Assembly (NCBI GenBank): GCA_030765605.1
Contig: JAVCCG010000038.1
Coordinates: 13,151-77,150, forward strand
Origin: Candidatus Alcyoniella australis
GTDB taxonomy: Bacteria; Lernaellota; Lernaellaia; JAVCCG01; Alcyoniellaceae
Reading direction: 5' to 3'
Length of the DNA stretch: 64,000 nt
Shown: positions 25,708 to 41,895 of the stretch, piece by piece
How the letters are laid out: each line of letters opens with the position of its first letter
Position numbering within the stretch: the first letter of the stretch is position 1
Translations under genes and position numbers: made by a program
The notes under the pieces: model-generated
Told to the model about the DNA's origin: nothing
Database searches by the model: none
Seen by the model: the letters and a program-made list of their open reading frames with translations, nothing else

Positions 25708-27317
25708 TGGGCGGCCCGTCGATCTTCGGCCATGCTGCTGCCGATGTTTACCGCGCTGCGTTGCGTAACGCTTTGCGTTTCACAGGGCCCCACGCTGGTC
25801 CGCGTTACCCTGCGCCGCAACGTGCGGCCCAGCCTGGCCAGCATTCGCTGGCAGCCCAGGCCGAGCTTGCCGATCCACATCTCGAGCGGTAGGCCCAGCC
25901 AGGCGTGTTCGAGCCGTCGCCGCGCTGGAATCCTGAACAGCCCGGCCACCAGCCGCACCAGGGGCGAGGGGCTCAGGTCCTCGACCTTGCGGTCGATCCA
26001 GATCACATAGAAGAACAGCCGCTTGGCCCGGCGCCGCATGCGCGGGCTGAGCCAGCCCTGCTCGGTGCGCACGCTGTCAAAGCGCGACCAGGCGCGCAAA
26101 TCGGACGGCGGCCGCAGACCGTGGCGCAACGCCAGGTCGTAGCCCGGAGTCCGCGGGTAGGGTGTGAACACGAAGCTGGCCACGATCTTGGTCAGCGGGT
26201 TGTCGCGGGTCAGCTCGATCATCAGCGCCATGCTCGCGTCGAGGTCCGCGTCGCTCTCGCCGGGCATGCCGGCCATGAAGTAGAACGAGGGCGCGATGCC
26301 CGCCGTGCCCAGCTTGAGGTTGACCTGCCGGATCTGCTCCACGCTGCTGTCCTTGCCCATCAGCTGCAACACGCGATCCGAGCCCGATTCGGCGCCGATG
26401 TGGATCACCTCGCATCCGGCGCGCGCCAACAGTTCCAGCTCTTGCTCCGACATTTGGAGCAGCGGGCCGACCTTGCCGCCGTTGATCAGGTGCGGCACTG
26501 CCGCGCCGCGTTCGATCATTCCCTGCGCCACTGCGGATACGCGCTGGAGGTCCTCGAAGTAGCTGTCGTCGATCAGGTCCAGCTGGCCCGCGCCCAGGTC
26601 TTTGACCAGATGGGTGATGCGTTCCAGGGTGCGCTGGGCGCTCTGCGCGCGCCACGACGAACGGTTGACGAACGGGTTGTAGCAGAATACGCAGCGTCCC
26701 AGGCAGCCGCGGCTGGTCTCGATCTGCAGCTTGAGCCGGTCATCGCGCACGTTGACGCCCGCAGACCAGTCGTAATTGCGCAAATCGAGCATCTCGTAGG
26801 GCAGCTCGGGCAGCAGCTCGAGCTCGACCAACGGCGGCTCCGACGTCAACTCTACGTCGGCGTTGTTACGATAAGCGATGCCCTGCACATCGCGCAGGTC
26901 CGAGCCGTTTTCCAGGGCCGCGACCAGCGCCGGGGCCACGGTCTCGCCCTCGCCGCGGGCCACAATGTCCACCGTCGGCTCGCCCAGCACGATCTCCGGC
27001 GCGAAGCTGCCGAAAGCTCCGCCCCAGACCAGCGGCGCGTCGCAGCGGCGCTTGATCCAGCGGCTCAATGCAATTCCCGGCCTGATCTGCGAGCCGCCCA
27101 TCACGTGCATTCCGACCATCAAAGGCCCGCGTTGAAGCAGCGCGCCGAGCTTGCGCTCCCAGTCCGGCGTCATCCGCTGGTCGACCAATACGCATTCGCA
27201 ACGCCCCTGAATCGCGGCGGCCACGCCGAGCAATCCCAGGGGGAGCGGGCGCTTGTCGCGGGTGAACTCATAGGGATCACCCACCAGCGGATTGACCAGT
27301 ACGACGAGCGGTTTCAT
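25704..27317 (-). CDS. B12-binding-domain radical SAM protein
   Basis: 537 residues from ATG 27317. N-terminal B12-binding-like Rossmann domain (residues 1-140, VLVNPLVGDPYEFTRDKRPLPLGLL; no DxHxxG), then a radical SAM TIM barrel with the cluster cysteines C205, C209 and C212 (CLGRCVFC). C-terminal about 100 residues are basic and lack further cysteines. Such proteins methylate or rearrange lipids, hopanoids and natural products; substrate unknown. It heads the lptC-lptA-lptB-rpoN operon with ATGA coupling, so an envelope lipid or lipid A substrate is a reasonable guess, not shown by the sequence. Confidence 0.85.
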   Translation of the reverse strand: MKPLVVLVNPLVGDPYEFTRDKRPLPLGLLGVAAAIQGRCECVLVDQRMTPDWERKLGALLQRGPLMVGMHVMGGSQIRPGIALSRWIKRRCDAPLVWGGAFGSFAPEIVLGEPTVDIVARGEGETVAPALVAALENGSDLRDVQGIAYRNNADVELTSEPPLVELELLPELPYEMLDLRNYDWSAGVNVRDDRLKLQIETSRGCLGRCVFCYNPFVNRSSWRAQSAQRTLERITHLVKDLGAGQLDLIDDSYFEDLQRVSAVAQGMIERGAAVPHLINGGKVGPLLQMSEQELELLARAGCEVIHIGAESGSDRVLQLMGKDSSVEQIRQVNLKLGTAGIAPSFYFMAGMPGESDADLDASMALMIELTRDNPLTKIVASFVFTPYPRTPGYDLALRHGLRPPSDLRAWSRFDSVRTEQGWLSPRMRRRAKRLFFYVIWIDRKVEDLSPSPLVRLVAGLFRIPARRRLEHAWLGLPLEMWIGKLGLGCQRMLARLGRTLRRRVTRTSVGPCETQSVTQRSAVNIGSSMAEDRRAAQ

Positions 27318-27355
27318 CGACACCACGTTAGCATATACGTGCACACCGAGGTAGT

Positions 27356-27473: not shown

Positions 27474-27836
27474 ATGACAAAGAAAATCCTATTGGTCGAC
27501 GACGACGAGATGGTATTGATCGCCGTGGCCGACCTGTTGCGCAGCCAAGGTTATACCGTGCAAACCGCAGCCAACGGCGAGAGGGCCCTGGAACTGGCCG
27601 AGGTCGAGCAGTTCGACCTGTGCGTACTCGATACGCTGATGCCCGGGATCACCGGCCGCGAGCTGGCCCGCAGCCTGCGGTCGATCGAACGCTACAGCAA
27701 ACTCCCGATTATCATGCTCAGCGCCCGCCCCTCGAACGATGAGGGACCCGAGGAGGACGGTAAACAGCCGCTGGTGTTGGCCAAGCCGATCAGGCCCGAA
27801 CGGCTGATCGCGATGGTCGAGAGCGTCCTACTGTAA
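27474..27836 (+). CDS. Single-domain response regulator (CheY-like)
   Basis: 120 residues, receiver domain only: acidic pocket D9-D10-D11, phospho-acceptor D53 (VLDTLMPG), S83 (MLSARP) and K104 (LAKPI). No output domain, so it acts by protein contact or as a phosphorelay intermediate. No kinase gene adjoins it. A sigma-54-type promoter and leader hairpin lie upstream. The 3' end overlaps the convergent phosphatase-superfamily gene by nine bases. Confidence 0.9.
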   Translation: MTKKILLVDDDEMVLIAVADLLRSQGYTVQTAANGERALELAEVEQFDLCVLDTLMPGITGRELARSLRSIERYSKLPIIMLSARPSNDEGPEEDGKQPLVLAKPIRPERLIAMVESVLL

Positions 27837-29762
27837 ATAGCCCAGGCTTCTGAGACGCTGCAGCGTCTCCGGGTCGATGTCCCGTTGCGATGCACCGCCG
27901 TGAATCGCGCTGATCGACTTCAGCGCCTCGATCTCTCTGGCCGCCGCTTGGGCCATTTGGGCCGCCTGCTCGTGCAGCTCCCCGGCGAGGTTGTTGCCTT
28001 CACGGGGATCCTGGTCAAGATCGAACAGCCGTTCGTCAGCCGTGCGTTCATATTGCCCGTAGTGAAATTCAGCCTGGCTGATCCATTTCCAGCCCGCGGC
28101 GCGCCGTGAGAAACGCGGCGGACCGAAGAGGTTGGTAAAGGCCAGAGCGGGGCCGGGCTCCGCAGCGTTCTCATCGCCGAGCAAATAGCTCAGATCTCGC
28201 CCCTCATGCGGATCGGGGAACTGCAATCCGGCCTGGGCCGCGATGAACGCCGGCAAATCGCTCAGCCTTACCTGCTGCTCGATTCTGGTCCCGGCCAGCC
28301 TGCCGTGGGGCAGCTTGACGATCAGCGGCACGTGCAACACCTCGTCGTAGAGCGTGACCGAGTGGCCGAGGAATCCGTGGTCGAGGAACTCCTCGCCGTG
28401 GTCCGAGGTGACCACGATCAGCGCCTGATCGTAGATCCCCAACCGTTGCAGCTCGCTGATCGTCTGGCCCACCACGTGGTCGGAGTAGGCGACCTCCGCG
28501 TCGTAGCGCGCCAGTACGTACTCGAGCTGTTCGGCGGTTAGCTCGAGGTTCTCGCGGGCGAACTCGGGGAACGAGTCGGGGAAGCCCAGCGGCTCGGGCC
28601 GGTTTTTCCAGAAGCGGTCGTTGTAGAACAGCGGCGCGTCGTACGGATAGTGCGGATCGTAGGTATGCAGGAAAAAGAAGAACGGTCGCTTCGCGTTGTG
28701 ATCGAAGAACTCGCGCGCCGCGGCAGCGGCCCATTCGCCGCGCTGCTCGGGCAGGTAGACGTAGCTTTGAAATCCCTGGGCGAAGCCGTAGTCCGGCGAG
28801 AGCAGGAAGTTGCTCACGGCCGCGCCCGTGGCATAGCCGGCGTTGCTCAGCAGCTCCTGGAGCAGGAACGTGCGCTGGGGAATCCGCAGCCGGATCGAGG
28901 TCACGCCGTGGGCCAGGGGGTTTTGCGCGCTGAGCATGGTCACGTGGCTGGCCAGGGTCCACGGCGAGAGGCTGGCGACCTGCTCGAAGAGCACCCCTTC
29001 CTCGGCCAGGCGGTCGAGCACCGGTGTGAACGCGCGCTCGTAGCCGTAGCAGCCTAAGTGGTCGGCGCGCAGGGTGTCGATGCTGATCAGCACCACCGGA
29101 AACGCCGTGGGCTCCGGCTTTTGCCCGAGCAGACCCGGCAGCGCGGCTGTCAGGGCCCATAGGCCCAGGCCGACCAGACCCGGCCACAGTGCGTTCTTGC
29201 CCTGCAGCGGCGCGGCCTCGGCCCGTTTGCGCCGCAATGCGCGGACCAGCAGACCGATCAACAACGGCAATCCCACAGCGATGGCCGTGCCCAACAGCGC
29301 CAGTCCGAGCAGCGGTCGGATAAAGGCCGACGACCAGCCGTTGACCGCCTCGCTGAGCATCGGCAGCAGCAGGGTGTTCAGCGTCACGTCGAATGTCACT
29401 TGCTCGCGGTAGTCCGCCGGGATGTGCGATTCGTAGGCCAGGGCCGCGTGCAGAAAAGCGATGACCGCGAAAAACAGCCAGTAGGCCGTGAACAGCACGG
29501 CCGCTGTTACGCGCCCGCCGCGCGTGCGCAGCAACGAAAAATTCGCCAGGTTGAACAGTCCGAGGATCAGCCCGATCAGCAGTCCCCAGGCCATGGCGTG
29601 GGCGGTGTGCCCGGCCACGCTGCGCAGGGCGAGGGTCAGCATGCCCTGGGAGAGGTACGCGCCCGCGGACGATTCGAGCACGCCGCGCACCACGCCGATC
29701 AGTGCGGCGATCAGCAGCACCCAACCGCTGCGGCTGGCTGTTTTGCGAACGATCGCGCCCAT
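27828..29762 (-). CDS. Membrane-anchored alkaline-phosphatase-superfamily (sulfatase-like) enzyme
   Basis: 644 residues: about five hydrophobic helices in 12-210, then a periplasmic domain with VVLISIDTLRADHLGCYGY (metal ligand D229), SPWTLASHVTMLSA and VTSDHGEEFLDHGFLGHS. The catalytic position is T269 (TLASH in place of the sulfatase CxPSR). It ends LRSLGYLQ, a tail common in this sulfatase-like subfamily. Thr rather than formylglycine Cys/Ser argues for phospho-group transfer or phosphodiester cleavage. Third such protein in the window. Divergent from the inositol-phosphatase-like gene. Confidence 0.82.
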   Translation of the reverse strand: MGAIVRKTASRSGWVLLIAALIGVVRGVLESSAGAYLSQGMLTLALRSVAGHTAHAMAWGLLIGLILGLFNLANFSLLRTRGGRVTAAVLFTAYWLFFAVIAFLHAALAYESHIPADYREQVTFDVTLNTLLLPMLSEAVNGWSSAFIRPLLGLALLGTAIAVGLPLLIGLLVRALRRKRAEAAPLQGKNALWPGLVGLGLWALTAALPGLLGQKPEPTAFPVVLISIDTLRADHLGCYGYERAFTPVLDRLAEEGVLFEQVASLSPWTLASHVTMLSAQNPLAHGVTSIRLRIPQRTFLLQELLSNAGYATGAAVSNFLLSPDYGFAQGFQSYVYLPEQRGEWAAAAAREFFDHNAKRPFFFFLHTYDPHYPYDAPLFYNDRFWKNRPEPLGFPDSFPEFARENLELTAEQLEYVLARYDAEVAYSDHVVGQTISELQRLGIYDQALIVVTSDHGEEFLDHGFLGHSVTLYDEVLHVPLIVKLPHGRLAGTRIEQQVRLSDLPAFIAAQAGLQFPDPHEGRDLSYLLGDENAAEPGPALAFTNLFGPPRFSRRAAGWKWISQAEFHYGQYERTADERLFDLDQDPREGNNLAGELHEQAAQMAQAAAREIEALKSISAIHGGASQRDIDPETLQRLRSLGYLQ

Positions 29763-29868: not shown

Positions 29869-30690
29869 ATGGATTACCGCGAAGCGCTGGAGTTTACAAA
29901 GCAGATCGCGCAGCAGGCCGGTGACTATTTGCTGGGCAAGCTCGACACCGAGCTGATCGTGAACAGCAAGTCCTCGCCGGTCGATCTGGTGACCGATGCC
30001 GACCGCGGCAGCGAGGAGCTGATCTGCTCGGCCATTGCCCTGCATTATCCGCAGCACGAGATCATTTCCGAGGAGACCGCGCGCAACATCGAGGGCCGCG
30101 AATACCAGTGGGTGGTCGATCCGCTGGACGGCACGGTCAATTATGCCCACGGTCTGCGCGCGTTCTGCGTGTCCATCGCCCTGCTTGAAAACGGCGAGCC
30201 GCTGCTGGGCGTGGTGCATCATCCGGCTCAGAGCGAGACCTTCTGGGCGCTGCGCGGCCAGGGCGCGTACGTTAATTCGCAACGGATCAGCGTCTCACCC
30301 GAACCGCGGCTCGACCGCAGCCTGTTGGCCACGGGCTTTCCCTACGACATCCGCAACACGGCCCAGACCAACCTCGATCACTTTCTCAAGTTCTCGATCT
30401 GCTCCCAGGCCGTGCGTCGCATCGGCTCTGCCGCCCTGGACCTGGCGTGGGTTGCGGCCGGCAGGTTCGAGGGCTTTTGGGAGCTCAAACTTAAAATTTG
30501 GGACATGGCCGCGGGCGTGCTGCTGGTCAGCGAGGCCGGGGGCCAAGTCAGCGATTTCGGCGGGGACAAGCTCAATCTGTTCGAGCCGTTCATCGTGGCC
30601 TCCAACGGCCTGATCCACGAGCAGATGATCAAGCTGCTGGCCCAGGCTCCGCCCGACGATCTGCTGAGTTACATCAGCGGCAATCGATGA
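29869..30690 (+). CDS. Inositol monophosphatase-family phosphatase
   Basis: 273 residues with all family motifs: EEtar-type metal ligands (SEETARN, about 66-72), D84-PLDGTVNYAHG and W211-DMAAG. The family dephosphorylates inositol phosphates, bisphosphate nucleotides or sugar phosphates. ATG 29869 gives the conserved N-terminus MDYREALEFTKQIAQQAG; no strong ribosome site is visible. Its stop overlaps the next start (ATGA), linking it to the metallo-beta-lactamase-fold hydrolase. Confidence 0.9.
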   Translation: MDYREALEFTKQIAQQAGDYLLGKLDTELIVNSKSSPVDLVTDADRGSEELICSAIALHYPQHEIISEETARNIEGREYQWVVDPLDGTVNYAHGLRAFCVSIALLENGEPLLGVVHHPAQSETFWALRGQGAYVNSQRISVSPEPRLDRSLLATGFPYDIRNTAQTNLDHFLKFSICSQAVRRIGSAALDLAWVAAGRFEGFWELKLKIWDMAAGVLLVSEAGGQVSDFGGDKLNLFEPFIVASNGLIHEQMIKLLAQAPPDDLLSYISGNR

Positions 30691-31478
30691 ACGATCGCCT
30701 GCGCGTGACCTATCTGCGCTGCTCGATGACCCTGATCCAGTGGCAGGGACTGACCGTGCTCACCGACCCGTGGTATGGCAACAATTTGCGCGGCTTGCCG
30801 TGCTTCTACGCTCCGCCCATTGCCTTGGATCAATTGCCGCCCATCGACGCGGTGCTGGCCAGCCATTTGCACCCCGACCACTTCGACGTCAAGGCGGTGC
30901 GATTTCTGGCGGCGCGCAATCCGCGAATGGCGGTCTTCGCCCCGCCGGGTGTGGTTGAAAAGCTTGGGCCGGGCCATGCGGGCGAGGTTCACGAGCTGCA
31001 GTGGTGGCAAAGCCGCGCCCTGGGCCCGCTGGAACTGATCGCCGCGGAGGCGCACCACAGCGGCTACGAGATCAACGCCGTAATTCGCGGCCCGGGCGGC
31101 AGCCTGTTCTTCGGCGGCGACTCGCGCTACAGCCCGGCGTTCAATCTCACGGCCCAGCGACTCGGTCCCTGCGACGTGGCGCTGCTGCCCATTGGCGGCA
31201 CGCGGGTTTTCGGCCGCCGGATCGTGATGAATCCTCAGGATGCGGCCGCGGCTGCCCACGATCTGGGCGCGCGTTACGCGATCCCGATCCACGAGGGTGG
31301 AATCTGGGCCAGCCTGCCTCCGCTGTCGCTGCATCCTGGACGTCCGCGGCACTTGCGCGAGATTGCCGCACGGCCGGATTCCAAGTTCGAGGCGATAGTG
31401 CTCGAGCCCGGCGCAAGCGCCGAGTTCGCACCGGGCGAGAAAGGGCTAACGTTTGTCGCGCAGGCTGCGGCGCAATAG
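30687..31478 (+). CDS. Metallo-beta-lactamase-fold hydrolase (UlaG-like)
   Basis: 263 residues. The zinc motif H60-L-H62-P-D64-H65 (SHLHPDHFD) is intact, with LTDPWYGNNL, AEAHHSG, FFGGDSRYSP and PIHEGG following in the order seen in UlaG/NAPE-PLD-like enzymes. Those hydrolyse lactones, phosphodiesters or N-acyl lipids; substrate unknown. Coupled to the upstream phosphatase by ATGA. Its last 33 bases overlap the convergent radical SAM gene. Confidence 0.85.
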   Translation: MNDRLRVTYLRCSMTLIQWQGLTVLTDPWYGNNLRGLPCFYAPPIALDQLPPIDAVLASHLHPDHFDVKAVRFLAARNPRMAVFAPPGVVEKLGPGHAGEVHELQWWQSRALGPLELIAAEAHHSGYEINAVIRGPGGSLFFGGDSRYSPAFNLTAQRLGPCDVALLPIGGTRVFGRRIVMNPQDAAAAAHDLGARYAIPIHEGGIWASLPPLSLHPGRPRHLREIAARPDSKFEAIVLEPGASAEFAPGEKGLTFVAQAAAQ

Positions 31479-32525
31479 CGTCGCGGGCCAGCGCCAGTTC
31501 AGCAGGCTGGGGAACGCCTCGCACGGCGTCCAGCATCCCGGGCAGCGATCGTGTTCCACCATTTGCCGCGCCTGTCGCGCATCGTCGCTGTTAAGCAGCC
31601 GCTCGATCTCGAAGCCGTAATCCTCGAGCTTTCCCAACGGCCGATTCCACAGTGTGCAGGGGTAAACCGTGAGGTCCGGCGCAATGTAGAGGTTGCTGCG
31701 CAACGATACGCAGCGCGCGGGCGAACGGCCGGTGCGCAAATGCAGCGGCATCAGTCGCAGGAACCAGCGCTCCAATAAATCCAGCGGCGAACGCAGCGGC
31801 TCGCGGCGTCTGAGCTCGAGCAGTTTAGTCGCGGCCTGTTTGGTCTGCTCAGACGTGAGCCCGGGGCAGTTGATATTGCCGAAAAAGTGCGACGAGCGGT
31901 TGAAGAAGTTGACGTGTAAATCGCGCGGTTCCAGCCCGGGCACGCGGTCGCTGAGCGCGCCAAAGGTTGCCTGCACCTGGTCGATGTTTTGCGGCACGAG
32001 GGTCATGCCGAAGTAAACGTCCACACCCGGGATCTCGCTCAGCGTCAGATAGGTCAGCACGCTGCGCTCAAAAGAGTCCGGGCTGTTGCGTAGCTGCGAA
32101 TCGAGCGCGGCCGGGCCGTTGACGCTGACCGTAACCACCAGCCGTCCGCGTGAGCGTAGGCGGTGTTCGTGTACTGTCGAGCGCACCAGATCGAGGTCCG
32201 CGCCGCCCGATGTGGGGAAATGCAGCACCGCCAGGTGGGGCAGCTCGCTGCGGATCGCGTGCAGGATCGAGGGCAGGTCGTTGCGCGCGAAGATCTCGCC
32301 GCCGGTGAGGTCGATCCAATTTACAAAGCGGTTGCGCGCGAACAGTTCGGCGAACGCTTCGGCCGGGGCCTCGTCGCACTGCGGCGGATTATCGCCGTGG
32401 CAAAACGTGCAGGAATAAGGGCAGCGCATTGTCGGCGCCAGGGTCAGCTTGAACGGCCGCGCGTTTCGTCCGAACCCTGCGGCCAGGGCCCGCAGACCCA
32501 AAGCCGTCAGGCCCAAAGGATTCAT
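31446..32525 (-). CDS. Radical SAM protein with C-terminal auxiliary cysteines (SPASM-like)
   Basis: 359 residues from ATG 32525, overlapping the GT2 stop. The SAM cluster motif is C35-x3-C39-x2-C42 (CPYSCTFC), followed by DLTGGEIFARND. The C-terminal part carries further cysteines (RCVSLRSNLYIAPDLTVYPCTLW and RCPGCWTPCEAF), suggesting one or two auxiliary iron-sulfur clusters as in SPASM/twitch enzymes. These modify peptides, sugars or lipids. Context is glycosyltransferase and carbamoyltransferase genes; substrate unknown. Terminal gene of a four-gene minus-strand operon. Confidence 0.85.
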   Translation of the reverse strand: MNPLGLTALGLRALAAGFGRNARPFKLTLAPTMRCPYSCTFCHGDNPPQCDEAPAEAFAELFARNRFVNWIDLTGGEIFARNDLPSILHAIRSELPHLAVLHFPTSGGADLDLVRSTVHEHRLRSRGRLVVTVSVNGPAALDSQLRNSPDSFERSVLTYLTLSEIPGVDVYFGMTLVPQNIDQVQATFGALSDRVPGLEPRDLHVNFFNRSSHFFGNINCPGLTSEQTKQAATKLLELRRREPLRSPLDLLERWFLRLMPLHLRTGRSPARCVSLRSNLYIAPDLTVYPCTLWNRPLGKLEDYGFEIERLLNSDDARQARQMVEHDRCPGCWTPCEAFPSLLNWRWPATLLRRSLRDKR

Positions 32526-33199
32526 CTGTCGCGTCGCATACGCAGCCTGAGGATCGTCCAGAGGATGCGCAGGCCGTTGCGGATTCGTCGAAAGTCGGTG
32601 CGCCCCGCACTGCGCGGGCTGCGCAGCACCGGCACCTCGACCACGCGCAGACCCTGTTTGAGTGCGCTGATTAAAATCTCGGTCTCGATTTCGTACTGGG
32701 CCGAGCGCAGTTGTAGGGCCTTGAGAAACTTGGCGCGGATCAATCGAAAGCCGGATTGCGAATCGCTGATCCGGGCGCCGAACAGCAGATTGATCAGCCC
32801 GGACATCAGTCGATTGCCCCAATAGTTCGGCCCGCTGATCGCGCCGCGTTCGATGCTGCCGATGAACTTCGAGCCGTTAACCAGATCTGCGCCGTCTGTC
32901 GCGGCCTGGATCAGCTTTGGTACATCGCGCGGATGGTCCTGACCATCGCCGTCGATGAACAGCACCCAGTCGCCGCGCGCGGCCTTGATCCCCGCGGCGA
33001 TCGCCCGGCCCTTGCCCTGGTTGGGCCGCAGCGCCAGCACTTGAGCACCGGCCCCCTCGGCGATCTGAGCGGTGCTGTCGATCGAGCCGTCGTCGACCAC
33101 GATCAGCTCGTAAAGCGAGCCAAGCCGCGCCAGCTTGTGCAGCACATCTTCGATCGAGTCCTGCTCGTTGTGCGCGCAGACCACGGCCGAGATCTTCAC
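32522..33199 (-). CDS. GT2-family glycosyltransferase
   Basis: 225 residues from GTG 33199, directly abutting the toroid gene stop. GT-A motifs: ISAVVCAHNEQD, VVDDGSIDST, FIDGDGQDHP (DxD) and the SGFRLIRAKFL segment. No membrane helices, ends in a basic tail. Resembles polyprenyl-phosphate-using GT2 catalytic domains without the anchor. Part of the tightly coupled operon 35583-31446. Confidence 0.87.
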   Translation of the reverse strand: MKISAVVCAHNEQDSIEDVLHKLARLGSLYELIVVDDGSIDSTAQIAEGAGAQVLALRPNQGKGRAIAAGIKAARGDWVLFIDGDGQDHPRDVPKLIQAATDGADLVNGSKFIGSIERGAISGPNYWGNRLMSGLINLLFGARISDSQSGFRLIRAKFLKALQLRSAQYEIETEILISALKQGLRVVEVPVLRSPRSAGRTDFRRIRNGLRILWTILRLRMRRDR

Positions 33200-34180
33200 T
33201 TAGATCAGCTCCGCGGGGATTGCCCCGTGTTCGCGCCAGGCCAGGGCCTGGATCAGGAACACCGCGCTCCAGCTCGGCCGATCGCTGCTCTGCGGCGTGT
33301 AGCGCGGCGCCGCTCCGTTGTTCAGCGATTCGAGGAATTTCAGGCCGGACTCGATGTTGTCGCTGAAACGTTCGGGGTCGATCAGCAGCCATAGCCGTAG
33401 CGCCTGGGCCGTGGAGTCGCTTGCGGGCTGGGCCTGAGGATCGATGAAGCTTGGCACCCCGCCCTCGGGCCGTTGCAGCGTGGCCAACATTTGCGCCGCG
33501 CCGCGCAAGTCGGGCTGGTCGATCAGACCCGCGTGGCCGCAGCCGATCAATCCCTCCAACGCATAGCACAGGGCGTGAGTGTAGACCTCGCGGTCGGGCG
33601 CTACGCCGTTGAGCAGGCATTGCAAGTCGGCGTCTAGGGCCAGGTCGGTCAACATTGCGCGTAACGCGTTGCTAAATCCCGTGGGCCGCAGCTTCTCGGG
33701 GATCGCCTCGGCGCCGCGCACGATCTTGAGCAGATGCGGGCCGGGCCGCGTGGACCAGCGGTTCACAGCGTTATGACCGAGCACTGCCGCGCGCTGTTTG
33801 AGCATCCGGCCGATGGTCCGCCCCAAAATTTCCAGCGCGTCGCGGATCGCCGCTTGCAGTCGCGCGGTTGTACCGGAGCGCTCCAGACGGGCCAGGGCGT
33901 CGGCGGCCAGTGCGCTGTCGAACAAATAGATCGATCCGTTCTTGCCGATGCCGCCGCGCTTGTGCACGGACGAGATCAGCGCTTGCGCCATCTGTTCCAG
34001 GCGTACCCGGTCCAGCTCATCGAGCGCCGATGGGTAAGTAGTGGCTGCCATCAGCGCGTAGGCCGTGGCCTCGGGGTAGCCAAAGGCGTCGGGCCCTTCC
34101 CAGCTGAGCACCCAGCCTTGGGGGTCGGCCATGCGCTGCGAGAGCAGCCAGCGCGCCAGGTTTTGCTTATCGAAACTCAT
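33200..34180 (-). CDS. Alpha/alpha-toroid protein (terpene-cyclase/six-hairpin-like), function unknown
   Basis: 326 residues, almost all helical, with spaced motifs such as YPEATAYALMA, GGIGKNG and QRPEGGVPSFIDPQAQPASDSTAQAL that resemble the QW-type repeats of alpha/alpha-barrel enzymes (prenyltransferase, squalene cyclase, glycoside hydrolase folds). The catalytic DxDD or DxxDD of terpene cyclases is not evident. It lies between a B12-type radical SAM and a GT2 gene, overlapping the former's stop (ATGA). I do not recognise a specific function. Confidence 0.65.
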   Translation of the reverse strand: MSFDKQNLARWLLSQRMADPQGWVLSWEGPDAFGYPEATAYALMAATTYPSALDELDRVRLEQMAQALISSVHKRGGIGKNGSIYLFDSALAADALARLERSGTTARLQAAIRDALEILGRTIGRMLKQRAAVLGHNAVNRWSTRPGPHLLKIVRGAEAIPEKLRPTGFSNALRAMLTDLALDADLQCLLNGVAPDREVYTHALCYALEGLIGCGHAGLIDQPDLRGAAQMLATLQRPEGGVPSFIDPQAQPASDSTAQALRLWLLIDPERFSDNIESGLKFLESLNNGAAPRYTPQSSDRPSWSAVFLIQALAWREHGAIPAELI

Positions 34181-35583
34181 CTGCGCAGCATGTTCCCCAG
34201 CACTTTGAGCCCGGCCCTGATCGCGCTAAAACGACTGATGCGCGCGCGAAACAACAGCAGATAGACCAGCTGCAAAAGCTTGCGCGGTCGCAGATAGAAC
34301 GAGCGCACGATTTGGTCGCGCATGTTTTGCAGCTGCTCGGTCTCGAGGCTTTTGTTGCGGATGATCGAGCGGCGCAGGAAAACGTAGTCGTCCCAATTAT
34401 CGCTGAGCACTCGATCTTCGGCCAGGCACTGTTGGCGCAGGCGCGATCCGGGCAGTGGCGTGGCAAAGCTCAGCTGCAACACGTGGGGATCGAGCTTTTT
34501 TATTGCGCGCTCTGTAGCGCGGATGGACGCGGCGTCGTCGTCGGGAAAGCCGATGATCGCATAGCCCATGACCACGATGCCCTGACGTTTGATCCGCGTG
34601 ATCGCCTCGGCGATCTGTTGCTCGGTGATTCCTTTGTGCACTGCCGCGAGCTGTTCGTTGACCGCGCCCTCCATGCCGATGCCGATCTCCACGCAGCCCG
34701 CGCCGCGCATCAGCGCGACCATCTCGTCGCTGAGCATGTCCACGCGCGTGTTGCACGCCCAGCGGATTTTGCGCCCCAGGCCGCGCTCGATCAGCAGCTC
34801 GCAGAGTTCGATCACGAACTTACGGCTCGCGGTGAAGGTGTGATCGATGATTGCGATGTAGTGCAGTCCCAGGTCGCGCACGCATTGCTCGATTTCGTCG
34901 GCCACAAGCTTGGGGTCGCGCACCCGGGTTCGGGCGCCAAACAGCAGGTGGCTGTCGCAGAAACTACAGCGCCCGGGACAGCCGCGCGTGGCTCGCAACG
35001 CGGTAACGCGGTCGGAGTAGGGCGATGAGTAGCTCGCGTTGGGCAGCAAATCGCGGGCCGGGAACGGCAGCGAGTCGAGCTTCGCCAGTAGCGGCCGATC
35101 AGGCGTGGATTCGATCGCGCCCTCGCGCCTGTAATGCAGCCCCATAACGTCATCCAACCCGCGCTGCTCCGCAACGCGTTGCGCGATATCGAGCACGCCG
35201 TACTCGGGCTCGCCGCGTACCACAACGTCGAGCTGCGGGATTTGTTCGAGAGTCTGTTCGGGCAGGGCCGAGCCGTGGGTGCCGATCAATACTTTCAGCG
35301 CTGATGACCCATCCAGTCCGGCGAGCAGCCCGGCCACGGCGTTGATCGAATGCGTGGCCGCGGTCAGCACCAACAGCTGCGGGTCGAACCGGCGGATGCG
35401 TTCGAGCTGCGCGGTCTGGTCCAGTCCCAGGGCGTTGGCGTCGAGGATCTCGACCTGCGCCGCGCTGATCTCGCGTCGCACCAGCGCCGCGCAGTAGGCC
35501 AAATCCAACGGCGGCACCACGCTGATCAGCGAGGTGTGCTCCACTTGGCGCTGGTAGTTGGTATTGGTGAAAAGTACTCGCAT
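34177..35583 (-). CDS. B12-binding-domain radical SAM protein
   Basis: 468 residues from ATG 35583. N-terminal B12-binding-like domain (VLFTNTNYQRQVEHTSLISVVPPLDLAYCAALV, no DxHxxG), then a radical SAM barrel with C202, C206 and C209 (CPGRCSFC). The C-terminus is basic and short. The family includes methyltransferases and C-C bond forming enzymes of lipid and antibiotic pathways. First gene of the minus-strand operon with toroid, GT2 and SPASM-like genes; divergent from the carbamoyltransferase operon. The longer frame upstream was rejected since the conserved strand starts at MRVLFTN. Confidence 0.85.
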   Translation of the reverse strand: MRVLFTNTNYQRQVEHTSLISVVPPLDLAYCAALVRREISAAQVEILDANALGLDQTAQLERIRRFDPQLLVLTAATHSINAVAGLLAGLDGSSALKVLIGTHGSALPEQTLEQIPQLDVVVRGEPEYGVLDIAQRVAEQRGLDDVMGLHYRREGAIESTPDRPLLAKLDSLPFPARDLLPNASYSSPYSDRVTALRATRGCPGRCSFCDSHLLFGARTRVRDPKLVADEIEQCVRDLGLHYIAIIDHTFTASRKFVIELCELLIERGLGRKIRWACNTRVDMLSDEMVALMRGAGCVEIGIGMEGAVNEQLAAVHKGITEQQIAEAITRIKRQGIVVMGYAIIGFPDDDAASIRATERAIKKLDPHVLQLSFATPLPGSRLRQQCLAEDRVLSDNWDDYVFLRRSIIRNKSLETEQLQNMRDQIVRSFYLRPRKLLQLVYLLLFRARISRFSAIRAGLKVLGNMLRR

Positions 35584-35584
35584 C

Positions 35585-35707
35585 AGTCTAGCCTGGGGTG
35601 TATCCAGCGCCAACAATCTCGCATCTGGGCGAGGGTCGTTGACCAACGAGTTCGGTACGCTCGCGTGCTCGCGTTGACGAACCATCATGAATAATTCAGG
35701 CTAGGCT
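35585..35707. repeat. Intergenic arms AGTCTAGCCTG / CAGGCTAGGCT
   Basis: In the 180-bp divergent gap an 11-base arm at 35585-35595 is complementary, with one mismatch, to 35697-35707. The right side, GAATAATTCAGGCTAGG at 35689-35705, matches 61072-61088 at 16 of 17 positions. No gene is visible in the gap; a TTGACG at 35674 could be a -35 element. Significance uncertain. Confidence 0.3.
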
Positions 35708-35763
35708 ACCAAAAATGGGTTGGAGTTGACAGGCATCCGAACAACCATCTGCGGAGTGCGCTG

Positions 35764-36042
35764 ATGAGCGCGATCGAGATTATCCACGTTGCGACATTCG
35801 TCCTGGCGCTATGGCTGCCCGGCGCAATGACCGCGTGGAAACTCGGACGCTTCGACGCACTCGAGTCGGCGATCGTCGGCCTGGCGATCGGGCTGCTGGG
35901 TTTGCCGGTGCTCGCCTTCGGTCTGGCCTGGTTGCTTCACGCCAACTTCAGCCTCTGGCTGATCTGGATCGCGGGCGGCGGCTGGCTGCTGCTGCTGATA
36001 CTCGGGACGCGACTGCGGCGGCCGCGAGTGGAGCAACAATGA
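35764..36042 (+). CDS. Small three-helix membrane protein
   Basis: 92 residues with three predicted transmembrane helices (IIHVATFVLALWLPGAMTAW, SAIVGLAIGLLGLPVLAFGLAWLL, LWLIWIAGGGWLLLLIL) and a short basic tail. It resembles the N-terminal hydrophobic part of larger polytopic proteins. Its stop overlaps the carbamoyltransferase start (ATGA), so it belongs to that operon. Function unknown. Confidence 0.7.
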   Translation: MSAIEIIHVATFVLALWLPGAMTAWKLGRFDALESAIVGLAIGLLGLPVLAFGLAWLLHANFSLWLIWIAGGGWLLLLILGTRLRRPRVEQQ

Positions 36043-37688
36043 TCGTGCTCGGGATCTGCGATGGGCACGACGCCGGGGCCTGCCTGCTGCGCGATGGCGA
36101 GATCGTGCATGCGGTGAGCGAGGAGCGGCTGACCAGGCGCAAGCGCCAGCCGGGTTTTCCGCTACTGGCGATTGAGGAGTGCCTGCGCTGCAGCGGCCTG
36201 GGCTGGTCGCAGGTCGAGCTGGTGGCCGTGGCCGAGCGAGCGGGCCGCGCCGTGTTCCGCGTGCTCGACCCCTGGTATCGCCGTAGCGACCCCAACCAGC
36301 TGCTGTTGCGGCCGACCAACCGTTTGGCGCGCAAGCTGCACCGCATGATCCACTCCAGCCGCTGGACGCGCGAGCTCGACGAGTCGCTCTCCAGGCAGGC
36401 GCTGAGCGCGCGGCTGCGCTCCGTCGGCTATCAGGGTCCGCTGGCGGTGGTCGACCATCACCAGGCGCACCTGGCCAGCGCGCTGATGTACAGCGGGATG
36501 CGCGACCCGCTGATCCTTTCGATCGACGCTTATGGTGACGGCTCGTCCGGCGCGGCTGCGCTCTTGGACCGACACGACCCACAGCTGCGCGAGATCGAGC
36601 GGATGGGCATTGAGAACAGCCCGGCCCAATTTTTCGGAGCGGTGGCCAGCCTGCTTGGGTTCGTCGAGGGCGAGGAGGGCAAGGTCAGCGCATTGGCCCC
36701 GTTGGCTCGCGGCGATCGGGCGCTGTCGATGCTGCGTCAGGGGTTGGATCCTGACGGCGAGCCGCGCGTGGAGCAATTGATCGATCTGGCCGGACGCGTC
36801 CTGGAACAATTTGGCGATCACGAGTTGGCGGCCGCGGCCCAGACGCTGCTCGAGCAGTTGGTTTCGCAAAAGGTCAGCGCACTACTCGAGTCCACCGGAC
36901 GCGACGAGTTGGCGGCGGCCGGCGGGGTGTTCGCCAACGTCGGGCTCAACCGCGTGATTTCGCGCCTGCCGGGACTGAGGCGGATGTTCGTGTTTCCGCA
37001 TATGGGCGACGGCGGGCTGTGCGCGGGCGCGGCGGCCGCGGTTGCGCTCGAGCACGGTATCGAGCCCGCGCCGCAGATGGAGCACTGTTCGCTGGGCGCG
37101 CAGTTCGGTCCCGAGCGCATCGCTATCGCCCTGGAGGACGCGGGGCTGCAATCCGAGACATTGATTGACGCGCCGCAGCGCGTATCGGACATGCTCGACG
37201 CGGGCAAGGTCGTGGGCCTGTTTCAGGGACGGGCCGAGTTCGGGCCGCGGGCCTTGGGGCAGCGTTCGATCCTGTTCAGCGCCGCGGTTTCCGGGCTACC
37301 GGCGAAAGTTTCGCGAATGATCGAGCGCGATCCGATCATGCCCTTTGCCCCGGCGACCATTGACGAACGTTTTAACGAGCTGTACGACGAGGCTGCGGCC
37401 GGACCCTGCGCACCGCTGATGACCGCAGCCTTCAAACTGCGCAACCATGCGGCGCAGCTGTTGCCCAACGCGGTGCACGCCGACGGCACGGCCCGCGCCC
37501 AGCGCGTGGAGCGGCAGGCAACGCCGCTGCATGCCCTGCTCAAGTGCGTGCCCAACGGTACGCTTTGCAACACCAGTTTCAACATGCACCGCGAGCCGAT
37601 CGTGCACACGCCCGAGGATGCGGTGGCCACCTATCTTGCGTCAGGGCTCGACGCGCTGTGGATCGGAGAACGCCTTGTCGTGCGCTGA
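36039..37688 (+). CDS. Carbamoyltransferase, NodU/CmcH/TobZ family (first copy)
   Basis: 549 residues. N-terminal Kae1-like domain with metal-binding VVDHHQAHLASA and LSIDAYGDG, EGEEGKVSALA in mid-protein, and the C-terminal EFGPRALGQRSI and CNTSFNMHREPIV motifs. Enzymes of this family make carbamoyl-AMP from carbamoyl phosphate and ATP and transfer the carbamoyl to a hydroxyl of a sugar or natural product (Nod factor, tobramycin, cephamycin). Starts in overlap with the small membrane gene and ends inside the next gene. Acceptor unknown. Confidence 0.92.
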   Translation: MIVLGICDGHDAGACLLRDGEIVHAVSEERLTRRKRQPGFPLLAIEECLRCSGLGWSQVELVAVAERAGRAVFRVLDPWYRRSDPNQLLLRPTNRLARKLHRMIHSSRWTRELDESLSRQALSARLRSVGYQGPLAVVDHHQAHLASALMYSGMRDPLILSIDAYGDGSSGAAALLDRHDPQLREIERMGIENSPAQFFGAVASLLGFVEGEEGKVSALAPLARGDRALSMLRQGLDPDGEPRVEQLIDLAGRVLEQFGDHELAAAAQTLLEQLVSQKVSALLESTGRDELAAAGGVFANVGLNRVISRLPGLRRMFVFPHMGDGGLCAGAAAAVALEHGIEPAPQMEHCSLGAQFGPERIAIALEDAGLQSETLIDAPQRVSDMLDAGKVVGLFQGRAEFGPRALGQRSILFSAAVSGLPAKVSRMIERDPIMPFAPATIDERFNELYDEAAAGPCAPLMTAAFKLRNHAAQLLPNAVHADGTARAQRVERQATPLHALLKCVPNGTLCNTSFNMHREPIVHTPEDAVATYLASGLDALWIGERLVVR

Positions 37689-39228
37689 GCGCAAGCTGCC
37701 CACGCTATGGGCGATGGCCGTGCTGTTCACGGCGCTGGCGATCTGCGGATTGTTCTACAGCATGTTCGCGGGCTGGGCGCGAGGCTACTGGGATACCTAC
37801 ATCATTGCACCGGCGATGTTCTGCGCCGGGCAGCCGGTCGATTTTCTCGACGCGCACGGCGAGCAGCGTTGGCAGATCGAGCTGGATAACCGGCTGCCGC
37901 ACGACCTGGTGGACATGCAAAGCTACGGGCTGATCAGTAAAGACCAGCGCATCGGCTCGGGGATCACAACCGGTCCGCTGTTCAAGCTTTTCGGCCTCGA
38001 AGGCTTCCGGCTGTTCTATGCATCGCTGGCCGGGCTGGCTTTCGCCCTGGGTTTCTCGCTGCTGTGGCGCACTGGGCTCGATTTCGGCACGGCCTATTTC
38101 TTCGCACTGCTGTTTCCGCTCAACGGGATTTACGGCTCCCTGGATCTGCTCAACCCCAACGCCATCGGCATGGTCGGGCTGACCCTGGTGCTGCTGTTTT
38201 TAATAAAGGAAGATTCCTCGGCACTGGTCGCGGGCGCAATGTTCGGCGCGCTGGGCGGTGTGCGCAATGTGGCGATCATCTTCGCGCCGGTGATGCTGAT
38301 TTTGCTGCTGCGCAGAAAGCGGCGCTGGCGCGATCTGTTGCTGTTCGGCCTGGCTGCGGCCGCGCTGATCGCACCCTACCTGGCTTGGAATCGTTTTGCC
38401 TACGGCGGGATGCTCGTTCACCCCACCCAGCATCCGGGCCTCGAGGGTTTCCGCCCGACTTTCGAGCACAACCTTTTAGGTTGGCGTTTTCAGTTCAACG
38501 GTCTGTTCAACTGGCCGCTGGCCGAGACCTTGATCCGTACACCGCATTACCCGTTCCCCAACTGGCTGCATTTGCCGCTGACCCTGCTCAAGGGCTTCGG
38601 TCTGCTGCTGCTGACCTTGATCGTGCCCGGCGTGGCCGGGCTGTGGCAACGCTCGCGTTCGCTGTTCGCTGCAGTGGCCTTGGCCGTAGTGACGTTCATG
38701 TTGATTTTCGGCGTGCAGGAGAACTGGGAAGAGCTCAAGACCACGTTCCTGGCTCTGGTGCTGCCGTTCCTGATCGTGCTGATGGCCCACGGCGGTGCCT
38801 GGCTTTCCGCGGCGCCGCGTAAACGTCTGGTCGGGTGGTACATCGCCCCGGCGCTGTTGATCGCCGCGCTGAGCGCGGCCTGCGTGTTCGTGGATCTGCC
38901 CGCGGACCAGCGCTGGTACGAGCGTTTCCCGCGCGCCGCGCACAACGATTCGGGCCTGGAGTGTCTGCCCGAGGGCCTGCGCAATACCCACTGGTTCTTT
39001 GCCACGCGCGAATGCGAGCGCGAGATCGAGGATCAGCGGCTGTGGCTGGCCCGGCCCTACCTGCTGCCCAGGCCGGCGATTGCGTTCACGCCGCGCGCCG
39101 AGCTGTTGCGCGACACTTGGTTCGAGCGTGAGCTGCTGGTGGAGGACGTCTGGTCGTCTATTTACGGGAAGCGCGAGGACCGATCAGTATCCGTTCCCGC
39201 CGCAACACCTGACCCAGAGTCGCAATGA
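37675..39228 (+). CDS. Polytopic membrane protein, GT-C-like
   Basis: 517 residues from TTG 37675, six bases after GGAG and inside the carbamoyltransferase 3' end; ATG 37708 is a fallback. About ten hydrophobic helices between residues 12 and 405, a conserved-looking periplasmic first loop (RGYWDTYIIAPAMFCAGQPVDFL) with acidic residues as in GT-C enzymes, and a soluble C-terminal tail of about 100 residues. Most likely a lipid-linked-sugar glycosyltransferase or polysaccharide assembly protein. The 3' end overlaps the opposite-strand gene 39158-39397 by 71 bases. Confidence 0.75.
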   Translation: MSCAERKLPTLWAMAVLFTALAICGLFYSMFAGWARGYWDTYIIAPAMFCAGQPVDFLDAHGEQRWQIELDNRLPHDLVDMQSYGLISKDQRIGSGITTGPLFKLFGLEGFRLFYASLAGLAFALGFSLLWRTGLDFGTAYFFALLFPLNGIYGSLDLLNPNAIGMVGLTLVLLFLIKEDSSALVAGAMFGALGGVRNVAIIFAPVMLILLLRRKRRWRDLLLFGLAAAALIAPYLAWNRFAYGGMLVHPTQHPGLEGFRPTFEHNLLGWRFQFNGLFNWPLAETLIRTPHYPFPNWLHLPLTLLKGFGLLLLTLIVPGVAGLWQRSRSLFAAVALAVVTFMLIFGVQENWEELKTTFLALVLPFLIVLMAHGGAWLSAAPRKRLVGWYIAPALLIAALSAACVFVDLPADQRWYERFPRAAHNDSGLECLPEGLRNTHWFFATRECEREIEDQRLWLARPYLLPRPAIAFTPRAELLRDTWFERELLVEDVWSSIYGKREDRSVSVPAATPDPESQ

Positions 39229-39397
39229 ACTGCCGTCGATAGAAAGGCAGCACGCGGCGAAAGCGCGGCTGGAACAGCGCCCGCGCGTGCAGCGCCGCGC
39301 CGATCGCCAAATTAATCCCGACGAAGATCGCCAATCCGAAAAAGTAGCGCAGGCGGCTGATGGGCCGCGGCTGTAAAATGTGCTCAGCGCGTTGCAT
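39158..39397 (-). CDS. Small membrane protein, 79 residues
   Basis: One hydrophobic helix (YFFGLAIFVGINLAIGAALHA, about 18-38) between basic flanks, with a strongly basic C-terminus (RRQFIATLGQVLRRERILIGPRASRK). ATG 39397 lies within the end of the PP-loop ATPase gene (14-base overlap) after a GAGGA ribosome site, which supports a real coupled gene. It overlaps the convergent membrane-protein gene. No homologue recognised; could be spurious. Confidence 0.5.
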   Translation of the reverse strand: MQRAEHILQPRPISRLRYFFGLAIFVGINLAIGAALHARALFQPRFRRVLPFYRRQFIATLGQVLRRERILIGPRASRK

Positions 39398-40100
39398 CGG
39401 CCTGATCCTCGGTCAGCTCGGCGATCAGCTGCCTGACGATTTGCGACTTGTCCTCGATGAAACGGCGCACTGTCTGTTCCGCGTGTTGCGGCGGCTGGCC
39501 CAACAGTAGGAAGGGCAGGTAGTAAAGCTCGCCGGGACGGCACGCGGGTTGGCTGGAGAGCCGACGTCCCATCAGCGGCAGCCCGAGCTTGAATCCCATG
39601 CTGCTAAGAAGCGCGTCCGAGTCCGCGCGTCGCGCATCATAGGCCGGGTTGGAGAACTCGATGCCGTACTCGCGATACAGGCCGCGCACCAGTTCGAGGC
39701 TTAGAGGCATCTGCTCGACCATCTCCGGCGTGTCGCCGCTCGATCCGTCGCAGGCGTGCTCGATGCCGTGTTTGAGGCACAGGGCGATGGTGCGGCCGTG
39801 CATTGCCAGCTTGCAGCCCATGCACCAGATGAATCCGGACTCGTACTGCTCGTAGTCGCGGTCCAGGGTGTCGAGCAGCACGCGTTGGAACAGCGGACGG
39901 ATCGAGATCAACGCGTGTTCGTATTTGGGAGCCACCAGACTGTTCAGCTCTTGGGCGCGCGCAGCGCTGCGATTCATGCGGGTCGTGCCGTAGCCGTTGT
40001 CATAGGTCAGCAGGTGGATTCGTTCGTACTCCTCGGCCAGGCCGATGGCCAGGGCCGTGGAATCGACTCCGCCTGAGAACATCAATGCCACTTTTTTCAT
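39384..40100 (-). CDS. PP-loop ATP pyrophosphatase (QueC/ExsB-like)
   Basis: 238 residues from ATG 40100. The PP-loop is S9-GGVDS14. Cysteines C93 and C96 (WCMGCKLAMHGR), C108 and C117 are grouped mid-protein rather than at the C-terminus, unlike canonical QueC, and DGSSGDTPEM follows. PP-loop enzymes adenylate a carbonyl for amidation or thiolation; relatives act on tRNA, queuosine precursors or nucleotide sugars (WbpG). Beside two carbamoyltransferases a sugar or metabolite substrate is likelier than tRNA, but this is inference. Confidence 0.8.
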   Translation of the reverse strand: MKKVALMFSGGVDSTALAIGLAEEYERIHLLTYDNGYGTTRMNRSAARAQELNSLVAPKYEHALISIRPLFQRVLLDTLDRDYEQYESGFIWCMGCKLAMHGRTIALCLKHGIEHACDGSSGDTPEMVEQMPLSLELVRGLYREYGIEFSNPAYDARRADSDALLSSMGFKLGLPLMGRRLSSQPACRPGELYYLPFLLLGQPPQHAEQTVRRFIEDKSQIVRQLIAELTEDQADATR

Positions 40101-40206
40101 CGAACTAAGACAAGTACACGGAGTACGCGCTGTCAAGCCGCAGCAACACTGCGTTGCCCGCCGCCTTGTTCACTGGGCGCGCGATCTGATAACTTCATCT
40201 GGACTT

Positions 40207-41895
40207 ATGCAACCTGACGACAAGACCAAACTGCCGCAACTGTTCTGCCTGCACGAGGACAGCAACGCCAACGCCGCCCTGTTCGATGGCCGTGAACGGC
40301 TCTGGGCCGTGGCCGAGGAGCGGCTGAGCCGCGTACGTTTCGACGGCGGATTCCCGCAACGCTCGATCGACTGGCTCGAGCAGGTCAGCGGTGTGCGGCT
40401 ACGCGATACAAAGCTGGCGGTCTGCGGCAACCAGACGCACTTCATCTCGCGGCTGTTCGGCTCGCATTTCCCCAGCTTTGAGCACGACATGTTTGGCCTG
40501 CTCCAACGGCTGAACCTGCTCTACCACCACGCGGTCTATCGTTGCGGCTGGTTCAGGCGGCTGATGACCGGGTTCAACGGCCTGCTGGCGCGAATGCGCG
40601 CGGGCGTGCCCGTGCGGCTGATCGACCATCACACGGCCCACGGCTACAGCGCGGCCCTGGCCTCGGGATTCCAGGACGCCACGGTGATCAGCGTGGACAA
40701 CTACGGCGACGGCCACAGCTCGCGCGTGTTCGCCTTTGAGAACGGCGGGCTCAAATTTCTTTACGGCTCGTCGGCCCTGCGCTCGCCCGGCCAGTTCTAC
40801 GGCGAAATGGCGCAGATCGCCGGGATCAACCCGCTGCTGGCGGGCAAGCTCACCGGCCTGGCCGCGCACGGCGATCCCGCGCCGGGCCTGCCGTTGGTCT
40901 CGCAGCTGTTCGGCCTTCGCGACGACGGCGAGGACTTCGTCTACCCGTTCAAACTTTTTGCCTCGGGTCATGCCTCGCCCTATCGCGAGCTGGCGCAGCT
41001 TGACCGCCGCGATTTGGCCGCGGCCACACAGCAGCGCTTCGAAGAGGTGATGGTCGGCTATGCGGCTGCGGCCGTGCGCCGCACCGGCCTGCCCAACGTG
41101 GCGCTGGCCGGCGGCGTGTTCGGCAACGTGCGCGTCAATCAGCTGATCGCCGAGCTGCCGCAGGTCCAGCAGGTCTACGTCTTTCCGGCAATGTCCGACC
41201 AGGGGATCGCAGTAGGCGCGGGATTGGCCTATTTAGCGCAGGAGCACGGTCTGCGCAGCTACGATCTGCCCTCGGTCTACATTGGGCCGGATTACGACGA
41301 GCAGCAGATCGAGCAGGCGCTGATCCAGGGCGGACTTAGCTATTCGCGGCCCGCTGACATCGCGGACGAGGCTGCCGCGGCACTGATGCAGGGCAATGTA
41401 GTGGTGCGTTATGCCGGGGCGTTGGAGTACGGCCCGCGCGCATTGGGGCACCGCACGATCATGTACCGGCCCGACGACTATTCGGTCAACGACTGGCTCA
41501 ACCACAAGCTGCATCGTAACGAGTACATGCCCTTTGCGCCGGTGATCATGGCGCAGCACGCCGATCGCATGCTGCGCAATCCCGACCTCGCGCCGCGCGC
41601 CGCGCGCCTGATGACGGTCAGCTTTCACGCCACTGACGAGCTCAAACGATTGTGCCCCGGCGTAATCCACGTCGACGGCACGGTACGGCCGCAGATTCTC
41701 TATCGCGAAGACGAGCCGCAGTACTACGCGATCCTCGAACGCTGGCACCAACTCAGCGGCGTGCCGTGCTTGATCAACACCTCGTTTAACATGCACGAGG
41801 AGCCGATCGTCTGCTCGCCGCAAGACGCGGTGCGCGCGTTTATCGCCGCAGGCCTGCCGCGGATGATCTGCGGACCGTTCTGGGTCACGGCTTAG
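40207..41895 (+). CDS. Carbamoyltransferase, NodU/CmcH/TobZ family (second copy)
   Basis: 562 residues from ATG 40207. Same architecture as the copy at 36039 but clearly diverged: LIDHHTAHGYSAALASG and ISVDNYGDGHSS in the Kae1-like half, LALAGGVFGN-type mid motif (VALAGGVFGNVRVN), EYGPRALGHRTI and INTSFNMHEEPIV in the C-terminal half. Both copies look intact, so two carbamoylations or two acceptors are possible. Its stop codon TAG supplies the first bases of the 180-bp palindromic element that follows. Confidence 0.92.
   Translation: MQPDDKTKLPQLFCLHEDSNANAALFDGRERLWAVAEERLSRVRFDGGFPQRSIDWLEQVSGVRLRDTKLAVCGNQTHFISRLFGSHFPSFEHDMFGLLQRLNLLYHHAVYRCGWFRRLMTGFNGLLARMRAGVPVRLIDHHTAHGYSAALASGFQDATVISVDNYGDGHSSRVFAFENGGLKFLYGSSALRSPGQFYGEMAQIAGINPLLAGKLTGLAAHGDPAPGLPLVSQLFGLRDDGEDFVYPFKLFASGHASPYRELAQLDRRDLAAATQQRFEEVMVGYAAAAVRRTGLPNVALAGGVFGNVRVNQLIAELPQVQQVYVFPAMSDQGIAVGAGLAYLAQEHGLRSYDLPSVYIGPDYDEQQIEQALIQGGLSYSRPADIADEAAAALMQGNVVVRYAGALEYGPRALGHRTIMYRPDDYSVNDWLNHKLHRNEYMPFAPVIMAQHADRMLRNPDLAPRAARLMTVSFHATDELKRLCPGVIHVDGTVRPQILYREDEPQYYAILERWHQLSGVPCLINTSFNMHEEPIVCSPQDAVRAFIAAGLPRMICGPFWVTA

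Follow-up and report, generated by a model that had tools for sequence, protein, structure and literature searches.

We analysed a 64,000-nucleotide stretch of the Candidatus Alcyoniella australis genome (the window throughout), in which positions 30687-41895 hold a compact group of genes for a PP-loop ATP pyrophosphatase, two carbamoyltransferases (CT1 and CT2), two radical S-adenosylmethionine (SAM) enzymes, a family 2 glycosyltransferase (GT2) and a GT-C-like membrane protein. Genes were called on the window, and the called proteins were scanned with Pfam and NCBIfam (Table 1). The minus-strand genes for the B12-binding radical SAM enzyme, an alpha/alpha-toroid-like protein, GT2 and a SPASM-like radical SAM enzyme are divergent from the plus-strand genes for a small membrane protein (smTM), CT1 and the GT-C-like protein. 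Profiles built without the window sequences recovered each gene among the 845 six-frame open reading frames of the window with E values from 5e-5 to 2e-238, including 7.2e-85 for the metallo-beta-lactamase-fold hydrolase (MBL), 5.3e-5 for smTM and 1.7e-17 for a second small membrane protein, smCC. No Rfam or tRNA feature was found in the window. All enzymes named in an earlier, sequence-only reading of this DNA were present in the gene calls, Pfam matches and leave-window-out profiles, and the coupling that it described for the minus-strand operon was borne out, with four-base overlaps at the B12/toroid and GT2/SPASM junctions and abutment of the toroid and GT2 genes. That reading had placed the PP-loop gene after the plus-strand operon, where it in fact lies on the minus strand, and its gene list, sound for the genes it named, left out smCC as well as MBL, which falls within its range.

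Table 1. Genes of the cluster, in window coordinates.
Feature	Positions	Strand	Remarks
MBL, metallo-beta-lactamase-fold hydrolase	30687-31478	+	Lactamase_B_2, Pfam E 9.7e-29
SPASM-like radical SAM enzyme	31446-32525	-	four-base overlap with GT2 gene
GT2	32522-33199	-	Pfam Glycos_transf_2 E 7.8e-31; abuts toroid gene
Alpha/alpha-toroid-like protein	33200-34180	-	without Pfam family; four-base overlap with B12 radical SAM gene
B12-binding radical SAM enzyme	34177-35583	-	longest frame reaches 35688
smTM, small membrane protein	35764-36042	+	directly upstream of CT1
CT1, NodU/TobZ-type O-carbamoyltransferase	36039-37688	+	four-base overlap with smTM
GT-C-like polytopic membrane protein	37714-39228	+	assigned from weak PMT_2 hits and topology
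smCC, small membrane protein, 79 codons	39158-39397	-	just downstream of PP-loop gene, 14-base overlap
PP-loop ATP pyrophosphatase	39384-40100	-	convergent with GT-C gene, divergent from CT2
CT2, second O-carbamoyltransferase	40207-41895	+	both Pfam carbamoyltransferase domains

The gene set is a conserved unit of uncultured prokaryotes, with a patchy distribution over several bacterial phyla and some archaea. The window genome (4.3 Mb) belongs to a class represented in our collection by seven genomes, its own and six others; four of the seven carry the gene group. One relative (G004) has the B12 radical SAM, GT2, CT2, MBL, PP-loop, smCC, GT-C, CT1 and smTM genes in one stretch, and another (G005) has nearly the whole set within 13 kb, with several of the genes in pieces. 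The loci are split in a third (G003), where one contig holds the divergent GT-C/CT1/smTM and B12 radical SAM/toroid/GT2 blocks and the MBL-CT2 and PP-loop pairs are located elsewhere. Searching a named genome collection with four PP-loop orthologues gave 19 loci, in Deltaproteobacteria, Myxococcales/Myxococcota, Bradymonadales, Omnitrophota and metagenome-assembled genomes (MAGs) labelled as archaeal by their record titles, and the neighbourhoods of these cross-phylum loci hold the same partner families.

A uniform six-frame count of the families beside the PP-loop gene in 33 genomes, which gives lower bounds because contig ends cut many loci, found smCC in 30, a carbamoyltransferase of either type in 18 (CT2 in 15), GT-C and the B12 radical SAM enzyme in 14 each, smTM in 12, MBL in 10, GT2 and the toroid in 8 each, and the SPASM-like enzyme and a SufS-like cysteine desulfurase in 7 each. 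All 12 families stand side by side in one Myxococcales genome (G150), and 11 of the 12 in the window. In the phylum to which G150 belongs (377 genomes), the PP-loop and GT-C genes occur together in 21, GT-C alone in 2 and neither in 354 (Fisher p 1.8e-32, with kinship of the genomes uncorrected); the same 3 of 279 genomes have both in the phylum of an archaeon-labelled MAG, and 3 of 285 genomes in an Omnitrophota sample have the PP-loop gene. PP-loop and GT-C distances are correlated across 15 genomes (r 0.81, Mantel p 0.0005), which, together with the rarity of the cluster in distant groups, suggests transfer between lineages as a unit. Viral contigs contained no relative of the PP-loop protein, and the cluster was thus not seen in phages. 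The sequence-only reading had predicted conserved neighbours if the genes serve one pathway; this was a strong test, and the same families do recur, both within the class and across phyla, so that the failure of conservation by which it could have been refuted did not occur. The safest conclusion is that the locus is a conserved biosynthetic cluster without an earlier description. A literature search, conducted largely outside subscription journals, turned up no report of a cluster with this gene content, and the earlier reading had likewise known of none.

The PP-loop protein carries an SGGVDST motif (PP-loop residues 9-14), the mid-protein CxxC already seen in the sequence-only reading (C93 and C96) and a third cysteine, C187. 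Of these cysteines, C96 and C187 are conserved without exception in 32 orthologues and 5 paralogues. In structure searches with an AlphaFold 2 model (mean predicted local distance difference test score 92.3, alignment of 19 sequences), the best match was YcfA of Erwinia amylovora (Z 28.9, root-mean-square deviation 1.6, 211 aligned residues, 21% identity), followed by the tRNA thiolase ThiI (Z 15.7), the nitrile synthetase ArtA (13.7), QueC (13.6), LarE with its [4Fe-4S] cluster (13.2) and NcsA (12.0). The ycf operon, including YcfA, makes 6-thioguanine, and the S. chromogenes 6-thioguanine operon encodes TgsA and TgsB, predicted to be a SufS-like cysteine desulfurase and a TtuA-like sulfur transferase, respectively (PMC7994395); the YcfA structure entries were not named in any paper that our literature search found. 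An identification as simply QueC was dropped after the YcfA match and the family scores, which fell below both cut-offs (19.9 bits vs 22 in Pfam, 22 vs 150 in NCBIfam).

A SufS-like cysteine desulfurase gene directly follows the PP-loop and smCC genes in 7 of the 33 genomes, often with overlapping genes, and the aligned copies retain the pyridoxal phosphate lysine and the catalytic cysteine. The cluster ligands of NcsA are Cys142, Cys145 and Cys233 (PMC10067955). Because YcfA is by far the best structural match, a SufS-like neighbour occurs in seven genomes and the 93/96/187 cysteine spacing is NcsA-like, the PP-loop enzyme is likely, judging from its sequence and predicted fold, to insert sulfur. 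Separately, a diverged PP-loop paralogue lies beside a B12 radical SAM gene, a GT2 gene or both at four other loci of the class (L076, L077, L078 and L080), and three of these loci also have a carbamoyltransferase gene close by. All three cysteines are retained in the paralogues tested (L076, L077 and L080).

CT1 and CT2 both scored above the Pfam cut-offs for Carbam_trans_C (E 2.8e-42 and 5.7e-49, respectively) and Carbam_trans_N (1.2e-22 and 1.1e-20), in agreement with the earlier description of two NodU/CmcH-type enzymes of which the second is diverged. Both proteins keep the HHxxH metal site and, towards the C terminus, GPRALG and NTSFN, and the Arg of GRxExGPRALG is kept in window CT1. 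Matches of CT1 to carbamoyltransferases in the PDB reach E 5.8e-56, and the PDB carbamoyltransferase matches include TobZ, GdmN and novobiocin enzymes. An ordinary carbamoyltransferase arrangement, a NodU-type gene adjoining an SxtJ-family gene (PF19588), lies some 10 kb ahead of the window (L056, G000:C38:837-3086).

The B12 radical SAM enzyme has B12-binding (E 8.2e-10) and Radical_SAM (E 3.9e-20) domains in Pfam and is nearest BchE (197 bits, cut-off 481) and HpnJ (176 bits, cut-off 578) in NCBIfam. Genomes of the class (G000-G006) contain unusually many B12-binding radical SAM homologues, 49-75 each, and because of this abundance orthology was assigned from gene context together with a clear best score. 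The SPASM-like enzyme has a CxxxCxxC motif, a C-terminal cysteine region and weak Radical_SAM/SPASM matches just below the curated Pfam cut-offs; its orthologues in six Myxococcota-type clusters are 36-43% identical. Upstream of the cluster and outside the conserved set are a second B12 radical SAM gene (25704-27344) and a gene for a membrane-anchored sulfatase-like protein (27828-29762). Elsewhere in the window's own genome, contig G000:C110 has a single 2358-amino-acid frame directly after a carbamoyltransferase gene (L168:1211-8287), with five Radical_SAM stretches, four B12-binding stretches and one SPASM stretch; similar proteins of 2278 and 2260 amino acids occur in G004 (L058) and G002 (L061). 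The same giant cluster encodes an 887-amino-acid fusion of a GT4 glycosyltransferase with radical SAM/SPASM (L062:1444-4107) and an 896-amino-acid fusion of a carbamoyltransferase N-domain with radical SAM/SPASM (L062:4736-7426).

GT2 is nearest dolichyl/polyprenyl-phosphate hexose synthases, at scores below the NCBIfam cut-offs (AglJ, 140.6 bits; DPhHxTase, 83.8 bits). The GT-C-like protein has a near-invariant YWDTYI where its first membrane segment ends, its C-terminal domain is conserved, and its orthologues are 33-41% identical; its profile matched no PDB sequence. Most cluster-carrying genomes in the phylum of G150 also have longer GT-C-like paralogues (frames of about 680-1500 amino acids) that match its central part. 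The toroid profile matched squalene-cyclase C-terminal domains (best E 3.5e-4), and its alignment contains no DxDD motif of class II terpene/squalene-hopene cyclases. Toroid relatives occur in 5 of the 7 genomes of the class, and the window protein alone, as a query against genome contigs, found none. The AlphaFold 2 model of the toroid, built from 3 sequences, was poor (score 58), and we disregarded the structures that it matched (best E 0.03). MBL contains an HLHPDH motif, and its gene adjoins CT2 or GT-C in relatives.

Neither small membrane protein matches a Pfam family, and smTM is not SxtJ; smTM relatives sit likewise before CT1 or CT2. In the smCC alignment a PRYR-type motif comes after a hydrophobic segment. 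Many relatives start with MGCCN, a cysteine pair that the window copy does not have. We infer that smCC is a membrane tether or partner of the PP-loop enzyme.

We propose, with about an even chance of being right, that the cluster builds a sulfur-containing, carbamoylated, radical-modified glycoconjugate. What was observed is the conservation of the gene set; from the set we infer what the product is, from which substrates it is made and in what order. GT2 would first make a polyprenyl-phosphate sugar, and the B12 and SPASM-like radical SAM enzymes would then modify unactivated carbon atoms in the sugar or the lipid. CT1 and CT2 could next use ATP and carbamoyl phosphate to carbamoylate two hydroxyls. 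A cysteine desulfurase, encoded in the cluster in some genomes and presumably elsewhere in the window genome, would hand sulfur to the PP-loop enzyme, which may be anchored at the membrane by smCC and would adenylate a substrate carbonyl oxygen and swap it for sulfur. Such chemistry is expected of YcfA and has been shown for CtaC, an Fe-S PP-loop thioamide synthetase (PMC6772006). The GT-C-like protein would finally move the modified sugar to an acceptor on the outer side of the membrane; the toroid may contribute an epimerase- or cyclase-like step and MBL a hydrolase step. The carbamoylated, radical-modified glycan or glycolipid of the sequence-only reading is compatible with the gene content, since this includes a polyprenyl-phosphate-type GT2, a GT-C-like protein, two carbamoyltransferases and two radical SAM enzymes, but that reading lacked the sulfur module indicated by the nearness of the PP-loop protein to YcfA and by the cysteine desulfurase adjoining it in other genomes. 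With sulfur added, its outline stays our preferred hypothesis.

Several observations weigh against this proposal. C93 is Phe in 8 of the 32 orthologues, all from one Myxococcota clade, so a three-cysteine Fe-S cluster is not universal and a two-cysteine thiolase mechanism is also possible; the three cysteines as proof of a [4Fe-4S] enzyme were weakened accordingly. The window cluster has no cysteine desulfurase gene, and only the 7 genomes mentioned above have one adjoining the PP-loop gene. PP-loop enzymes of this fold also form amides and nitriles, as QueC and ArtA do. The Arg of the GR motif is lost in CT2, where it is Ala, and is Ala or Pro in CT2 orthologues. The GT-C assignment relies on topology and on weak PMT_2 matches (4 of 12 members, none of them the window protein; best E 1.4e-5). 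In G004 an LPG_synthase_TM-type protein stands where the toroid gene would be, so the toroid is not obligatory.

The kinship of the PP-loop protein with YcfA and the shared type of desulfurase partner could also mean that the product is a small thio-compound secreted by the cell, such as a 6-thioguanine-like modified nucleoside or amino-sugar antibiotic for competition or predation, with the glycosyltransferases serving its assembly. Carbamoyltransferases of this kind do act on antibiotics, as the TobZ, GdmN and novobiocin matches illustrate. However, Pfam and NCBIfam scans found no NUDIX hydrolase, nonribosomal peptide or polyketide synthase, or dedicated exporter among the window cluster proteins, and the polyprenyl-type GT2 and GT-C-like protein indicate membrane-bound assembly, which leaves a secreted product unlikely in our view. 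We regard as similarly improbable that the PP-loop enzyme forms an amide or amidine, giving a glycan with extra nitrogen and no sulfur, as do the N-acetyl sugar amidotransferases (NASAT) of lipopolysaccharide. The fold is common to QueC, NAD synthetase and ArtA, and NASAT enzymes work on envelope sugars (PMC10607449), but the NASAT tetracysteine precedes the PP-loop (Cys44-82, PP-loop 122; PMC10607449), which here occupies residues 9-14, the locus showed no gene for a glutaminase partner, and the partner, where one exists, is the SufS-like desulfurase. Loose island clustering of two or three functionally separate modules (PP-loop/smCC, CT/GT-C and radical SAM/GT2) would suit G003, with its modules on separate contigs or far apart, and several Myxococcota loci with only smCC or SufS near the PP-loop gene, but is very unlikely given the overlapping genes, the pairings conserved across phyla and a genome-level PP-loop/GT-C co-occurrence that is nearly perfect even where the genes are not adjacent.

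Within the proposed glycoconjugate pathway, the PP-loop enzyme might act on the carbamoyl groups added by CT1 and CT2, producing O-thiocarbamates on a membrane-bound glycan whose genes travelled together between bacteria and archaea. A link of this kind fits the other loci at which carbamoyltransferase, GT2 and B12 radical SAM genes adjoin a sister PP-loop paralogue, but we consider the idea decidedly doubtful. To our knowledge, no surface glycan has an O-thiocarbamate modification, and the literature search found no carbamoyltransferase-linked thiocarbamate pathway.

That the genes have stayed together in bacteria and archaea alike, across lineages only remotely related, implies that their product serves a genuine function, one not yet described. 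The set combines a polyprenyl-sugar-type pathway with ATP-driven sulfur insertion, carbamoylation and cobalamin radical SAM chemistry, all three of them rare. Through it, smCC and the GT-C-like protein emerge as protein families without a name, and with the PP-loop enzyme and a carbamoyltransferase they form a signature by which a culturable host could be sought. Like BchE and HpnJ, the B12 radical SAM enzyme is matched by B12-binding and radical SAM domains over most of its length, but it scores far below their equivalog cut-offs, and no bacteriochlorophyll or hopanoid genes were seen beside the window gene. The carbamoyltransferases share the two-domain structure, metal site and adjoining small membrane protein of NodU/CmcH/TobZ and carbamoyltransferase-SxtJ loci, but smTM is a different protein from SxtJ, two divergent copies occur in one cluster and CT2 has its motif change. 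Unlike NASAT, the PP-loop protein has no cysteine upstream of the PP-loop. With the [4Fe-4S] thiolases TtuA, TtcA and NcsA, and with LarE and CtaC, it shares the PP-loop fold and a CxxC plus third cysteine spaced as in NcsA; it is, however, shorter, lacks the terminal zinc-finger domains, has lost the first cysteine in one clade and is encoded in a glycan-type context. From YcfA itself it differs in sequence (about 21% identity), and its CxxC falls outside the aligned YcfA stretch. The 6-thioguanine operons of Erwinia amylovora (ycf) and Staphylococcus chromogenes (tgs) resemble the cluster in the YcfA-fold PP-loop enzyme and, in seven relatives, the SufS-like partner, but the window cluster lacks both a desulfurase gene and a counterpart of the NUDIX hydrolase YcfB/TgsC, and it adds carbamoyltransferases, radical SAM enzymes, GT2 and the GT-C-like protein.

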